DNA from: Prochlorococcus sp. AG-424-P16
GTDB lineage: Bacteria > Cyanobacteriota > Cyanobacteriia > PCC-6307 > Cyanobiaceae
Reading direction: 5' to 3'
Assembly (NCBI GenBank): GCA_003213255.1
Contig: QCNI01000007.1
Location: forward strand, 1-60,953
Length of the DNA stretch: 60,953 nt
The notes under the pieces are model-generated. The model saw only the letters and a list, made by a program, of their open reading frames with translations. It ran no database searches and was not told the origin of the DNA. Position numbers and translations under genes: made by a program. This document shows, piece after piece, positions 20,549 to 25,074 of the stretch (positions are counted from its first letter, which is position 1; the number at the start of each line of letters is the position of its first letter).

Positions 20549-21739
20549 ATGAGTTTTAAAAAAAATATAAACGATATTAAGAAAAATTATTCCCTAGGAA
20601 TAATTGGAGGGGGTCAACTTGCTTTGATGTTAACCGAGGCAGCAAAAAAAAGAGATCTAGAAGTATGTGTGCAAACAAAATCTTGTGATGATCCTGCTGG
20701 TTTAAAAGCAGATCATGTCATAGAAGCTGATCCTTTAAAGATAACAGGTAATAAATCATTAATTAATAAGTGTGAAAAAATAATTTTTGAAAATGAATGG
20801 ATTAAAATTGATAAATTAAATTTAATTGACAATAAAGATATTTTTGTTCCAAGCCTTAATGCAATTAAGCCATTAGTAGATAGGTTTTCTCAAAAAAAAT
20901 TAATAGACAGAATGAATATTCCCTGCCCAAAATGGATAAGTATTGAAGATTTTAAAAATCTCTCGGATGAGGAAATTAATAATTGGATTTTTCCTCTAAT
21001 GGCAAAATCAAATAAAGGTGGATATGACGGCAAAGGGAACAGAAAAATAAAGACAAAAGAAGATTTAGATTTTTTTTTAACAGAGAATAGTTCTAATGAA
21101 TGGTTAATAGAAGAATGGATAGAGTATGAAAAAGAACTGGCTCTTGTTGGTTCGAGAGATAGGACCGGTAAGATAAGATTCTTTCCAATAGTTGAGACAT
21201 TCCAATCAAACCATGTTTGTGATTGGGTTCTTGCACCTGGAATAAATGAATATGATTTGAACTTATTTGCAATAAATATTTTCTCTTCAATAGTTAATGA
21301 ACTTAATTATGTTGGAGTTTTAGCTATTGAATTCTTCTATGGAGATAATGGTCTTTTAATTAATGAAATAGCTCCTAGAACACACAACTCAGCTCATTTC
21401 TCTATTGAAGCTTGTACTTCAAGTCAGTTTGATCAATATGTTTGCATCTCTTCTGGGATAATGCCACCAGAAATCAAAATGAACTGTGAAGGGGCAATTA
21501 TGATAAATTTACTGGGGTTGAAAAAGAATTTCCCAATCTCAATGGAAACAAGAATTAAAATGTTATCTGAAATTGAGGGTTCTAATATTCATTGTTATGG
21601 CAAATCTCGAGAAATTCTGGGAAGAAAAATGGCTCACATTACATTTTTATTAAATGGTAAAACGCATTTAGAAAGATATGATGAAGCTCAAATTTTATTA
21701 ACTATGGTAAGAGACATTTGGCCATCTCCAAATGCATAA
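20549..21739 (+). CDS. purK: N5-carboxyaminoimidazole ribonucleotide synthase
   Basis: 396 residues. ATP-grasp enzyme of purine synthesis that carboxylates AIR. Seen: LGIIGGGQLALMLTEAAKKR at the N-terminus, the ATP-grasp loop KSNKGGYDGKGN, the VGVLAIEFF strand, and the metal-binding NEIAPRTHNSAHFSIEAC. Full length. Immediately followed by the 6S RNA gene on the same strand, a conserved neighbour in cyanobacteria. Confidence 0.95.
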   Translation: MSFKKNINDIKKNYSLGIIGGGQLALMLTEAAKKRDLEVCVQTKSCDDPAGLKADHVIEADPLKITGNKSLINKCEKIIFENEWIKIDKLNLIDNKDIFVPSLNAIKPLVDRFSQKKLIDRMNIPCPKWISIEDFKNLSDEEINNWIFPLMAKSNKGGYDGKGNRKIKTKEDLDFFLTENSSNEWLIEEWIEYEKELALVGSRDRTGKIRFFPIVETFQSNHVCDWVLAPGINEYDLNLFAINIFSSIVNELNYVGVLAIEFFYGDNGLLINEIAPRTHNSAHFSIEACTSSQFDQYVCISSGIMPPEIKMNCEGAIMINLLGLKKNFPISMETRIKMLSEIEGSNIHCYGKSREILGRKMAHITFLLNGKTHLERYDEAQILLTMVRDIWPSPNA

Positions 21740-21753
21740 TAAAATAAGTTAGA

Positions 21754-21944
21754 GTTAGATTACTGGATCTTTGGTTAAGTTCTTCTTTATGTGCTCTGAT
21801 CTGACTCTCTTTCGACGTGAGGAGACTGTCGTGATGCGGTAGTAAACCGATCTTGTAATCGGAAACGAAAGCCCACTTTGAATCCTCTTCTGGCATTTCC
21901 AGGTCGATGCAGCAGAGAACTGACGGGGATCCGGTGTTACCTAT
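21754..21944 (+). ncRNA. ssrS: 6S RNA
   Basis: About 190 bases starting a few bases after purK. The ends pair: TTACTGGATC at 21760-21769 with GATCCGGTGTTA at 21928-21939. The interior has an imperfect long stem with a central bubble, including CGGAAACGAAAGCCCAC, typical of 6S RNA, which mimics an open promoter and sequesters RNA polymerase. Location downstream of purK matches established cyanobacterial synteny. The exact ends are approximate. No protein ORF is credible in it. Confidence 0.85.
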
Positions 21945-22048: not shown

Positions 22049-22096
22049 TTGACGATCCATTTCTAATGTATCTATATTAATAGTACATATGTATTG
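22049..22096 (+). promoter_or_regulatory. Promoter with LexA-like box, first DUF1651 operon
   Basis: TTGACG at 22049-22054, an 18-base spacer, and TATATT at 22073-22078. Three bases later comes TAGTACATATGTATTG (22081-22096), one base off the cyanobacterial SOS-box pattern RGTAC-N3-DGTWC. The box covers the expected transcription start, where a repressor would block. The same elements in the same order, with the box exactly 3 bases after the -10, precede the paralogous operon at 24.5 kb. Confidence 0.6.
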
Positions 22097-22103
22097 CTAA
22101 GTA

Positions 22104-22403
22104 ATGACTTTAGGAGGAGCTAATGTTTGGACTAATTTTTCTTACGGTTATCGTAATGAGTCCCCAAGTGGTTGGTTGCTTAGCCCAGACCGCAGCAGAT
22201 TAATTTTATTTATAAGTAATAAAAAATCTCCAAGAAATAGTATGAGAATTTTTGCTCATACATATTATGCAAATGATCTTGGTGAGCCAATGGCAATTAA
22301 ATCATCCACTCAAATGTATTTGGATAATGCTTGGGATAAATGGCATGACCTTCAATTAGAAGGTTGGACTTTTGAAGAACTTGAATTACCTGAATCTGTA
22401 TGA
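22104..22403 (+). CDS. DUF1651 family protein
   Basis: 99 residues. The DUF1651 body starts at SGWLLSPDRSRLILF (about residue 22) and contains AHTYYANDLGEP and a Trp-rich end (WDKWHDLQLEGW); it aligns along its length with the protein at 24548. The ATG has no Shine-Dalgarno and lies within about 20 bases of the predicted transcript start. The strong AGGAGG that follows (22112-22117) instead serves the overlapping +1-frame ORF at 22123. The true DUF1651 start could be internal or depend on translation of that ORF. Stop overlaps the next gene's start (ATGA). Function unknown; small soluble protein. Confidence 0.75.
   Translation: MTLGGANVWTNFSYGYRNESPSGWLLSPDRSRLILFISNKKSPRNSMRIFAHTYYANDLGEPMAIKSSTQMYLDNAWDKWHDLQLEGWTFEELELPESV
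22123..22203 (+). CDS. Overlapping +1-frame hydrophobic peptide, 26 residues (candidate)
   Basis: ATG at 22123 preceded by AGGAGG with 5-base spacing, the best ribosome site in the area. The peptide starts MFGLIFLTVIVMSPQ and continues VVGCLAQ, ending in AAD. The paralogous locus at 24567 encodes an ORF of identical length beginning MFGLIF and carrying PQ-x-x-GCL. Eleven of the first 20 residues are identical and the rest are hydrophobic or small swaps. The VVGC/LAGC segment resembles a lipobox. May be a single-span membrane peptide or tiny lipoprotein under the LexA-like promoter. No experimental evidence; see findings. Confidence 0.5.
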   Translation: MFGLIFLTVIVMSPQVVGCLAQTAAD

Positions 22404-22540
22404 CTAACTTAAATCCAATCAAAAAGAAATTATCAAAAGTAGATAGAAAGATATCTATGCAAGACCCATCAAAATTATTAGCAGAATTTTTTAATGGTGT
22501 TGTCATTGAACTTGATGAAGAATATAAATATGACTCATAA
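22400..22540 (+). CDS. Hypothetical protein, 46 residues
   Basis: Starts at ATG 22400 overlapping the DUF1651 stop by ATGA, which suggests translational coupling. Sequence begins MTNLNPIKKKLSKVDRK, continues with SKLLAEFFNGVVIELDE, soluble and charged. Its end overlaps the next start by 11 bases. No family recognised. Confidence 0.6.
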   Translation: MTNLNPIKKKLSKVDRKISMQDPSKLLAEFFNGVVIELDEEYKYDS

Positions 22541-22682
22541 AGAATTGATAGATCAAGTTTCCGCAAATTTATTTAAACAAAGTGGAAAGTTAGAAAGCAG
22601 AAGATCTTGGTTGGCAATGAGAAATTATCTTGAACAATTAGATACTGAACAACTTAAATCTATGCTTAAGGACCACGGATGA
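22530..22682 (+). CDS. Hypothetical protein, 50 residues
   Basis: Starts MTHKELIDQVSANLFKQSG; helical, charged, with no membrane span, ending MLKDHG. I chose ATG 22530 rather than the upstream in-frame ATGs because it overlaps the preceding gene by 11 bases in the usual operon manner. Last gene of the four-ORF DUF1651 operon. Function unknown. Confidence 0.6.
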   Translation: MTHKELIDQVSANLFKQSGKLESRRSWLAMRNYLEQLDTEQLKSMLKDHG

Positions 22683-22692
22683 TTTAAAAACT

Positions 22693-22806
22693 TTATTTAG
22701 TTTTTATTTTTTTCTTAATTCTCAGAAAACCGTAAGTTGCAAAGCCAACCAAAAACATATCCAAGTAAATATGCCAATTAGGAAAAATCTGGTGTATTAA
22801 TTCCAT
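22693..22806 (-). CDS. Small single-span membrane protein, 37 residues
   Basis: Starts MELIHQIFPNWHIYLDM, then a hydrophobic stretch FLVGFATYGFL and a lysine-rich tail. Its ATG shares one base with the TAA of the ligase-like gene upstream (TAATG), so the two are likely translationally coupled. No family recognised. Confidence 0.5.
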   Translation of the reverse strand: MELIHQIFPNWHIYLDMFLVGFATYGFLRIKKKIKTK

Positions 22807-23555
22807 TAACGTTTTATTGCCACTTGCCAATAAGGATAATCTAAATTTGATTTTTCTCTAATCAATTGTAATTTTCTAGAATTTATTTTTACTACTATTC
22901 CATCTGTTGGATATTGACTAAAAAGCTTCCCTTCTAGCCATTGTTTTCTAAATACTTCAATTTGGCTCGTAAAGTTGCATGAAATATCCTGAGGGATCGT
23001 GAAGCCAAGCTTTGAAAGACTTTTTTTGGACTCATATTGGTTAAGTGTTGAATTAAGTATTTGAAATGCGCAGAAGCTAAGACTTTCAGAAAATCCTTCT
23101 TTAGCCCTTAGAAATCCAGAAGCGATTCTCTGGGAGATATTTGGACTTTGGTTGGGTGCATATAATTCACCTCTAACTTGAAGAACTCTTCTTAAAGGGA
23201 GATTATTGGGAATGTTTTGGACTTTAATAAGTTTACTAGTAACGTCTGCCCCTTTTCTTGAAATTGCTTTCTCCAAGGTTCCATCCCTATATTGCAAAGC
23301 AACAGCACAACCATCAATTTTTGGTTCAATTAATAATCTGGTATCTACTAATAATCCTTTCAAAAATTCATCTATTGAATCCTTTTCTAATGAAGGTAAA
23401 ACTAGTTTATTTTTCTTTTTAAAGTAATCACAATTTGGGTTTGTTCTTAATAAATTTTTTTCAAGTTGGTCGAACTGCTTATCAGAGATTAAAGCATTAC
23501 CATTTCTATAATTATCGTCATACCATTCAATTCGTTCTTCTAAATAAGTCTTCAT
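22806..23555 (-). CDS. NAD-dependent DNA ligase-like protein, N-terminal half only
   Basis: 249 residues against about 670 for LigA. Residues 1-65 resemble domain Ia (Tyr and Asp pattern, EWYDDNYRNG, ISDKQFDQLEKN), the NAD-binding cap. The adenylation domain has motif I EPKIDGCAVAL (Lys 79), motif III QVRGELY, motif IV DGIVVKI and motif V YWQVAIKR. OB-fold, zinc finger, HhH and BRCT domains are absent, and the ORF ends cleanly after motif V. It could adenylate itself with NAD but is unlikely to seal nicks unaided. Overlaps the upstream gene by 4 bases (ATGA) and the downstream one by 1. Confidence 0.85.
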   Translation of the reverse strand: MKTYLEERIEWYDDNYRNGNALISDKQFDQLEKNLLRTNPNCDYFKKKNKLVLPSLEKDSIDEFLKGLLVDTRLLIEPKIDGCAVALQYRDGTLEKAISRKGADVTSKLIKVQNIPNNLPLRRVLQVRGELYAPNQSPNISQRIASGFLRAKEGFSESLSFCAFQILNSTLNQYESKKSLSKLGFTIPQDISCNFTSQIEVFRKQWLEGKLFSQYPTDGIVVKINSRKLQLIREKSNLDYPYWQVAIKR

Positions 23556-24495: not shown

Positions 24496-24542
24496 TTGAC
24501 GTCTGCGAGTAGTACATTTATATTATTAGTACAACTGTATTA
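24496..24542 (+). promoter_or_regulatory. Promoter with LexA-like box, second DUF1651 operon
   Basis: TTGACG at 24496-24501, 17 bases, TATATT at 24519-24524, then 3 bases and TAGTACAACTGTATTA (24527-24542). This has the same one mismatch to RGTAC-N3-DGTWC as the box at 22081. An extra half-site AGTAC lies in the spacer (24511-24515). The matching arrangement in two paralogous promoters argues for shared regulation. Confidence 0.6.
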
Positions 24543-24547
24543 TCTTC

Positions 24548-24838
24548 ATGACCTCAGGAGTCGCTAATGTTCGGACTTATTTTTATCGTGGCAGCCTTAT
24601 TGACCCCCCAACTGGCTGGTTGTTTAACAAAAAAAGTGGTTTACTAATTTTTTTTGAGAGTTATAAGAAATCTGTATCTAATAACTTACTAGTATATACT
24701 CATCTTTTCTATGCAAATGAATTAGGTGAACCAGCCCAAATTAAAAATTCAAGACTTCATTCTATTGAGTGCGCTTGTGAAACATGGAATGAATTAATTT
24801 CAGGAGGTTGGCAAATTGTTACTAATAAATTCCAGTAA
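24548..24838 (+). CDS. DUF1651 family protein (paralog)
   Basis: 96 residues. Aligns with the protein at 22104 over its whole length: TGWLFNKKSGLLIFFES, THLFYANELGEP, CETWNELISGGW. The ATG has no Shine-Dalgarno, and AGGAG (24556-24560) inside the gene points at the +1-frame ORF at 24567. Followed 2 bases later by the Cys-rich protein gene. Function unknown. Confidence 0.75.
   Translation: MTSGVANVRTYFYRGSLIDPPTGWLFNKKSGLLIFFESYKKSVSNNLLVYTHLFYANELGEPAQIKNSRLHSIECACETWNELISGGWQIVTNKFQ
24567..24647 (+). CDS. Overlapping +1-frame hydrophobic peptide, 26 residues (candidate, paralog)
   Basis: ATG 24567 with AGGAG 6 bases upstream. Peptide begins MFGLIFIVAALLTPQ, then LAGCLTKK and ends VVY. LAGC is a textbook lipobox, although the n-region lacks basic residues. 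Same length, same start hexapeptide and same PQ-x-x-GCL as the ORF at 22123, and the same position relative to the promoter. The C-terminal six residues are not conserved. Candidate only. Confidence 0.5.
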   Translation: MFGLIFIVAALLTPQLAGCLTKKVVY

Positions 24839-24840
24839 TC

Positions 24841-25074
24841 ATGATTAAGGTAAATCCGACAAAATGGGAATATTTAAAAGAATCTACCCTAAAACGAAAA
24901 CGAACAAAGATTTGTATTACTTGCAATCACTTTCGCTACAGCACTACAGAAACTTTTGCTACTATCTTGATTTGTCCAAAATACGAAAAACGCATACCAC
25001 AGGGTGATCATCTACTTAAAGGCTGTGAGCATTGGCAAAAAAATAGGACGATATTTTCCCCTGAAGCATCTTAA
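24841..25074 (+). CDS. Cys-rich putative zinc-binding protein
   Basis: 77 residues. Possible metal ligands CITCNHF near residue 26, then CPKY, then CEHW near residue 61; CxxC plus two later Cys and nearby His suggest one zinc site. Rest is basic. Lies 2 bases after the DUF1651 stop, so it is the second gene of that operon and would share the LexA-like control. Not recognised beyond this. Confidence 0.65.
   Translation: MIKVNPTKWEYLKESTLKRKRTKICITCNHFRYSTTETFATILICPKYEKRIPQGDHLLKGCEHWQKNRTIFSPEAS

Follow-up and report, generated by a model that had tools for sequence, protein, structure and literature searches.

A candidate membrane peptide nested out of frame in LexA-boxed DUF1651 genes of Prochlorococcus

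What do the two paralogous DUF1651 genes encode that lie in the 60,953-nucleotide stretch of Prochlorococcus sp. AG-424-P16 analyzed here (the window)? At both loci, the only Shine-Dalgarno (SD) sequence ahead of either possible start serves a hidden ATG in the +1 frame, and neither DUF1651 ATG has one. The original prediction had pointed out this placement of the AGGAGG in the gene at 22104 (gene A) and the same arrangement, with an equally long hidden ORF, in its paralog at 24548 (gene B), about 2.4 kb beyond. We confirm both points: each hidden ORF starts with ATG, lies in the +1 frame and encodes 26 amino acids. The features of the region are listed below by their positions in the window.

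20549-21739: purK, with PurK_C and ATP-grasp matches
21757-21941, forward strand: 6S RNA (RF00013, 91 bits), following purK and preceding DUF1651 gene A with its LexA box
22049-22078, forward strand: putative sigma-70-type promoter of gene A, by consensus match (-35 TTGACG at 22049-22054, 18-base spacer, -10 TATATT at 22073-22078)
22082-22095, forward strand: putative LexA box of gene A, AGTACATATGTATT, by pattern match
22104-22403, forward strand: DUF1651 gene A, 99 amino acids, ATG without SD, folded domain from about residue 20
22112-22117, forward strand: SD AGGAGG, 5 bases ahead of the hidden ATG of A
22123-22203, forward strand: hidden +1-frame ORF A, 26 amino acids from an ATG, MFGLIFLTVIVMSPQVVGCLAQTAAD, constrained core at residues 2-11
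22400-22540, forward strand: 46-amino-acid ORF overlapping the stop of DUF1651 gene A (ATGA)
22494-22682, forward strand: 62-amino-acid ORF, possible third gene of operon A, without a convincing family match
22806-23555, reverse strand: 249-amino-acid ORF between both LexA-boxed operons
24496-24524, forward strand: putative promoter of gene B, by consensus match (TTGACG, 17-base spacer, TATATT at 24519-24524)
24528-24541, forward strand: putative LexA box of gene B, AGTACAACTGTATT, by pattern match
24548-24838, forward strand: DUF1651 gene B, 96 amino acids, ATG without SD
24556-24560, forward strand: SD AGGAG, 6 bases ahead of the hidden ATG of B
24567-24647, forward strand: hidden +1-frame ORF B, 26 amino acids from an ATG, MFGLIFIVAALLTPQLAGCLTKKVVY, in B the frame under stronger selection
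24841-25074, forward strand: 77-amino-acid CxxC protein, downstream of gene B

The nested arrangement and its spread

The two ATGs of each locus are 19 bases apart, and the hidden ORFs lie over the start of DUF1651. Both genes belong to PF07864, with 40.3 and 48.8 bits against a cut-off of 22, and in both the domain begins only at residue 23 (gene A: E=4.3e-10, residues 23-89). An AlphaFold2 model of A gives residues 1-17 a pLDDT below 50 and most core blocks 88-92, so that the first 17 or so residues of DUF1651 are predicted to form a disordered tail. The modeled core (m995528bc3b86) has a beta-beta-beta-beta-alpha order. A Foldseek search with it returned PUR-alpha and PC4 chains in the first rows, at E 0.28 or worse, with Z below 5 in a second comparison; the suggested resemblance to these nucleic-acid-binding folds is weak and not significant, and we treat it as a lead only. 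Downstream, the 46-residue ORF is probably in the same operon as gene A, and in MED4 a similar 45-residue ORF directly follows the PMM0684-type gene. The downstream ORFs found nothing convincing in the family libraries, the best match being an unknown PHROG for the 77-residue protein (E 0.004). The 249-residue ORF on the reverse strand has a sole Pfam match, to the NAD-dependent DNA ligase adenylation domain (PF01653).

The hidden peptide recurs throughout the genus. A DNA pattern for peptides of the MFGLIF type is present in 167 of 200 Prochlorococcus genomes, compared with 4 of 200 for the backwards control, and among 60 pattern places that were fetched, five were unrelated chance matches (L169-L172 and L203). 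In a family-wide draw of 201 genomes, 12 carry the pattern, nine of them in the window's genus; the three outside it do not exceed the level of the backwards control (6 genomes). Among the best 80 of 179 relatives of gene A, 77 are from Prochlorococcus and three from uncultured Synechococcaceae. Other genomes of the genus have a divergent type of DUF1651 (L313-L316), which also carries a hidden 26-residue ORF beginning MFGLIFLT.

Copies were collected by the body of DUF1651 (280 distinct ones) and sorted by best-matching query into types A (like 22104), B (like 24548), C (like PMM0684 of MED4, including the divergent L313-L316) and D. All 103 B copies retain the hidden ATG, as do 128 of 132 A and 28 of 30 C copies; the ATG of DUF1651 is retained in 100 of 103, 131 of 132 and 29 of 30, respectively. 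All 103 B copies have the GGAG of the SD unchanged, even at one base that is silent in DUF1651, while in the same copies silent bases at -14 and -5 are variable (61% and 55% majority); the SD is conserved as such. The RNA fold of the start region is not unusual (z 0.74 and 0.98). All 265 peptides scored (130 A, 103 B, 28 C and 4 D) have a 19-residue Kyte-Doolittle mean of at least 1.63, with family means of 1.90-2.12, and by hydropathy the hidden peptide is predicted to be a short, single hydrophobic helix.

The two products can be lost separately, since copies exist in which only one of them is damaged, in both directions. DUF1651 is ruined and the 26-residue peptide intact in L112, L136, L157, L307 and L174, and L206 has lost only its DUF1651 ATG. 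In the opposite direction, which the prediction itself had named as evidence against it, DUF1651 is kept and the hidden ORF lost in 3 of 135 A, 0 of 105 B, 2 of 34 C and 2 of 6 D copies; such copies exist but are uncommon. They comprise the A copies L119, L279 and L281, with ACG at the hidden ATG, the C copies L308 and L309, whose hidden start is lost, and the D copies L240 and L005, the hidden ORF being altered in other D copies. In two further A copies the hidden ORF ends after residue 19 with its helix still complete, and both frames are damaged in L151, L156 and L312.

Selection on the two frames

For each type, a tree was built without the overlap region, and parsimony changes were counted by their effect in each frame. 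SN changes are silent in DUF1651 and alter the peptide, NS changes are the reverse, and the downstream, DUF1651-only part of the same gene served as the control. The main codon count comprised 130 A, 103 B and 30 C sequences (about 265 copies). Expressed as parsimony events, which are not fully independent and to which recombination would add, the SN:NS counts are as follows.

Downstream control: A 238:73, B 195:99, C 180:45
Peptide residues 2-11: A 9:3, B 12:51, C 6:15
Peptide residues 12-19: A 33:3, B 6:17, C 10:19
Peptide residues 20-26: A 48:5, B 9:10, C 27:9

Relative to the downstream control, the ratio is reversed in B (Fisher 5e-12 for residues 2-11, 2e-4 for residues 12-19) and in C (2e-6 and 1e-6). 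In both types, the hidden frame is the better preserved frame over peptide residues 2-19; residues 20-26 do not differ significantly from downstream in B (p=0.13) or C (p=0.51). Codon-level purifying selection on the second frame, by which an overlapping gene is recognized, is thus found in B and C, and A has depletion only.

In A, the DUF1651 frame is better preserved. The SN:NS ratio at residues 2-11 equals the downstream ratio (p=1.0) and then moves further towards DUF1651 (p=0.05 and 0.02), with 29 SN and 5 NS changes over residues 1-15; the best 80 A copies were picked for their likeness in DUF1651, and this choice alone makes differences that change DUF1651 rarer in A. Over residues 2-11, SN changes are depleted about fourfold, at 9 against 37 expected from the downstream rate (P=4e-8), and leaving out residue 8, which alternates between T and M, gives 3 against 35. 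The other classes of change are also few there (NS 3, NN 2). Depletion of all classes would be predicted by dual coding, as it would by a constraint on the bases themselves, and both frames look constrained. A general effect of the 5′ end is unlikely in A because the SN-type rate between the two ATGs is not depleted there (5.28 per site against 5.13 downstream, over only 3.6 sites); the corresponding rates in C (14 sequences) are 0.75 and 1.34.

Changes were also sorted by codon position of DUF1651 in intervals of 30 bases. In the interval 11-40, counted from the hidden ATG, positions 1, 2 and 3 have 56, 31 and 12 changes in B and 29, 10 and 9 in C, whereas elsewhere position 3 is usually the most variable. 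Single intervals of this kind should not be over-read, since in B the interval 101-130, outside the overlap, also has more changes at position 1 than at position 3 (41, 25 and 34).

Because part of the sample came from the MFGLIF-type pattern, which already allows synonyms in the hidden frame, the count was repeated on copies fetched by DNA or DUF1651 similarity. In this subset, SN:NS at residues 2-11 is 8:29 in B (p=3e-6), 6:15 in C (p=2e-6) and 4:0 in A, where the 4 SN changes against 13.6 expected are a modest depletion (P=0.002). Within this subset, neither the peptide nor DUF1651 is damaged in 89 of 93 A, 79 of 83 B and 26 of 31 C copies by a strict rule that uses fixed positions and scores GTG starts as broken. 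Loci were taken from among the matches listed, including the best 80 of 179 relatives of gene A, and the 20 regions picked from genomes with fewer pattern matches lean towards broken copies. Copies with frame-breaking indels were left out of the counts (L118, L151, L154, L156, L157 and L280, later also L307 and L312, and from the subset the two A copies of L118 and L280), as were tblastn matches under 100 bits; L174 lies outside the counts, its DUF1651 being too decayed for tblastn.

Hence the per-frame analysis of the overlap that had been proposed, run here on about 265 copies, reveals protection of the hidden frame in B and C. The claim of selection on the hidden frame is clear for these two types, and for A it becomes one of dual constraint with DUF1651 the better preserved frame, so that the comparison of the two paralogs on which the claim was based fits B more than the gene at 22104. 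Recounted by eye, that comparison gives, as predicted, 11 identities in 20 codons for the hidden frame and 9 in 20 for the DUF1651 frame. The equal length of the two hidden ORFs is real and is weak evidence, because the hidden stop falls in the TTA/CTA-ATT codons of a conserved Leu-Ile of DUF1651 and residues 20-26 are unconstrained.

LexA boxes, phage induction and the MED4 counterpart

Both genes have TTGACG and TATATT separated by 17 or 18 bases, with the LexA box three bases after the -10 element. The LexA pattern RGTACNNNTGTAYT, from the consensus in PMC3091678, matches twice in the 61-kb window, both times at these genes, with 0.02 matches expected. Over the whole genome (76%, incomplete), there are eight matching places, and the backwards control matches once. 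Because genes that we take by eye to be recA and lexA are among the eight, the pattern appears to find real SOS genes. Another is a third DUF1651 gene, which lacks a hidden ORF. A homolog of the 77-residue CxxC protein (L320, G000:C8 near 39425) has its own near-palindromic LexA box, so the CxxC gene that follows B appears to be an independent SOS gene. In all, four of the eight places belong to this module. LexA boxes also lie ahead of small ORFs of 68 and 76 amino acids (L317, G000:C6 near 21576, and L323, C26 near 3168). A looser box accompanies 130 of 134 A, 104 of 105 B, 30 of 30 C and 3 of 6 D copies, and the promoter elements also stand out in A copies aligned on the box. Judged from these elements, transcription would start within the LexA box, some 20 bases ahead of the DUF1651 ATG and some 40 ahead of the hidden ATG, and LexA would control both loci in the cell.

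The order purK, yfr7/6S RNA, DUF1651 is common to the window and MED4, where yfr7 lies between purK and PMM0684 (PMC1242208), a member of the same DUF1651 family (PF07864) at the same place. The C copy of MED4 has its DUF1651 ATG at 652944, 100 bases after yfr7 (652625-652844), and from this position is PMM0684. By position again, the other copy in MED4, at 774.7 kb, is probably PMM0819. Transcripts of PMM0684 and PMM0819 have been reported to rise during infection by phage P-SSP7 (PMC5490813). PMM0684 and its neighbors are listed among 41 host genes that rise during cyanophage infection, with PMM0684-0686 among the mid-to-late induced genes (PMC2518516). According to the same paper, PMM0684 has an antisense RNA whose level increases along with that of the mRNA. 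The relevant passages of these two papers and of PMC1242208 make no mention of an overlapping peptide for PMM0684/DUF1651, and a full-text literature search by the DUF1651 family name and the MED4 locus tags returned no further report on these genes. As to a viral origin, gene B had no match in viral_contigs, gene A had one 90% match there, to a single contig (L325), and phage records, searched with gene A, contained no match.

A proposed overlapping gene pair and its alternatives

We consider it likely that each locus is an overlapping gene pair on one LexA-controlled mRNA, encoding DUF1651 and a single-helix membrane peptide. On the best reading of the sequences, the pair would be SOS-induced and probably phage-induced. 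DNA damage, and probably also phage infection, would cause LexA to leave the box just behind the -10 element, and ribosomes would then start at both ATGs, 19 bases apart on one mRNA. The first, without an SD, would yield DUF1651 with its disordered tail; the second, served by the SD, would yield the 26-residue +1-frame peptide, which would insert into the membrane through one helix at about residues 2-19, presumably the part of the peptide that is kept by selection. We think it probable that the overlap came about when the disordered tail of DUF1651 was overprinted. What the peptide does is a more tentative matter. Action on the membrane is its likeliest role; by analogy, it may lower membrane activity or energy during damage or infection in the manner of TisB or DinQ, a suggestion about which we are somewhat doubtful. 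Still less likely, in our view, is a version in which the hidden peptide is the best-initiated product and the main selected product of the B overlap, acting as a nested TisB/DinQ-like damage-response or anti-phage abortive peptide. The damage-inducible membrane peptide of the original prediction is thereby upheld in its hydrophobic single helix, by hydropathy, and in its LexA box, by sequence; its action we infer.

TisB is not known to sit within a protein gene whose codons it shares, which sets it apart from the hidden peptide. Small regulatory peptides out of frame in a larger gene are known, as with ComS within srfA of Bacillus, which is not a membrane peptide and has an unrelated function. 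A small membrane-associated protein embedded in the frame of another gene, as the hidden peptide would be, is found in the Rz/Rz1 spanins of lambda. Rz1 is an outer-membrane lipoprotein (PMC5295617, PMC6139136), whereas the hidden peptide has no conserved lipobox. In E. coli, TisB (tisB-istR) is described as a small LexA-controlled membrane peptide (PMC8145889), and DinQ (dinQ-agrB) as an SOS-induced, LexA-controlled single-transmembrane peptide of 27 amino acids with an antisense RNA at its locus (PMC3567139). The hidden peptide likewise has fewer than 30 residues, one predicted helix and a LexA box, and an antisense RNA has been reported for its MED4 relative (PMC2518516), one that rises with its mRNA, unlike a simple antitoxin. 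DinQ is intergenic, whereas the hidden ORF shares the first part of DUF1651 in another frame, and the likeness to both E. coli peptides is meant as one of form (box, length and helix).

Alternatively, only DUF1651 might be made, with the +1 ORF a passenger in a region conserved because it encodes the N-terminus of DUF1651 and serves translation initiation. We regard this as improbable. The DUF1651 frame does dominate in A, the N-terminal motif NVW(S/T)NFSYG is common to the aligned A, C and D copies (one D copy has NAW), and the hidden ATG is lost in those 3 of 135 A copies. However, a passenger should not produce the opposite codon signature that B and C have in the full and the restricted samples, nor should the peptide be kept in B, where the DUF1651 tail has lost the motif. 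The predicted disorder of that tail, the SD that is invariant at a DUF1651-silent base, and the peptides that outlive ruined DUF1651 copies speak against it as well.

Quite improbable, too, is a regulatory leader, in which translation of the hidden ORF, and not its product, tunes DUF1651 through competition for ribosomes. Such a decoy would need no particular amino acids, yet residues 2-19 are kept in B through many silent changes and the SN:NS ratio is reversed in C; nor does the start region have a notable RNA fold. The placement of the hidden ORF's SD inside the 5′ end of DUF1651, which has none of its own, and the unconstrained residues 20-26 would suit a leader.

A programmed frameshift is very unlikely. 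By this mechanism, ribosomes starting at the SD-served ATG would make the helix and slip near a CCC codon to give a membrane-anchored DUF1651. A run of six C is found at the junction in 80 of 103 B copies, but it is missing from the other 23 and is present in 0 of 132 A and 0 of 30 C copies, so the slippery site is not conserved. Moreover, the hidden frame of B is constrained past this site (residues 15-17, 1 event against 11.6 expected), and the DUF1651 start is retained at the rates given above, in all but three of the 103 B and one of the 132 A copies. In its favor, in one B copy (L280) the frame of the hidden ATG runs on into an intact DUF1651, and in another (L118) a deletion has the same effect but a stop follows later. 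Both are natural fusions by indel, in which an assembly error is possible.

Finally, we reject the colicin-lysis-type mini-lipoprotein that had been suggested from the lipobox-like VVGC/LAGC segment, and think it extremely improbable: such lipoproteins have an invariant lipobox Cys and a positively charged n-region, whereas residue 19 of the peptide, though Cys in most A and B copies, is not conserved (C/Y/F 111/16/5 of 132 A, 98/5/0 of 103 B and 2/27/1 of 30 C copies, hence Tyr or Phe in 21 A copies), and 264 of the 265 A, B and C copies have no K or R in residues 1-8.

The overlapping pair of DUF1651 and a single-helix peptide is therefore the reading we favor. We regard it as a well-supported candidate whose kinds, an SOS membrane peptide and an overlapping gene, are known, and whose combination is uncommon. 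If it is correct, then Prochlorococcus would possess an SOS membrane peptide, and, should this unannotated peptide be the operon's best-initiated product, tests aimed at DUF1651 alone would see only half of the gene's products. The loci would also be a same-strand bacterial overlap whose duplicates show which frame selection sees: one paralog uses the shared bases chiefly for DUF1651, the other chiefly for the peptide.
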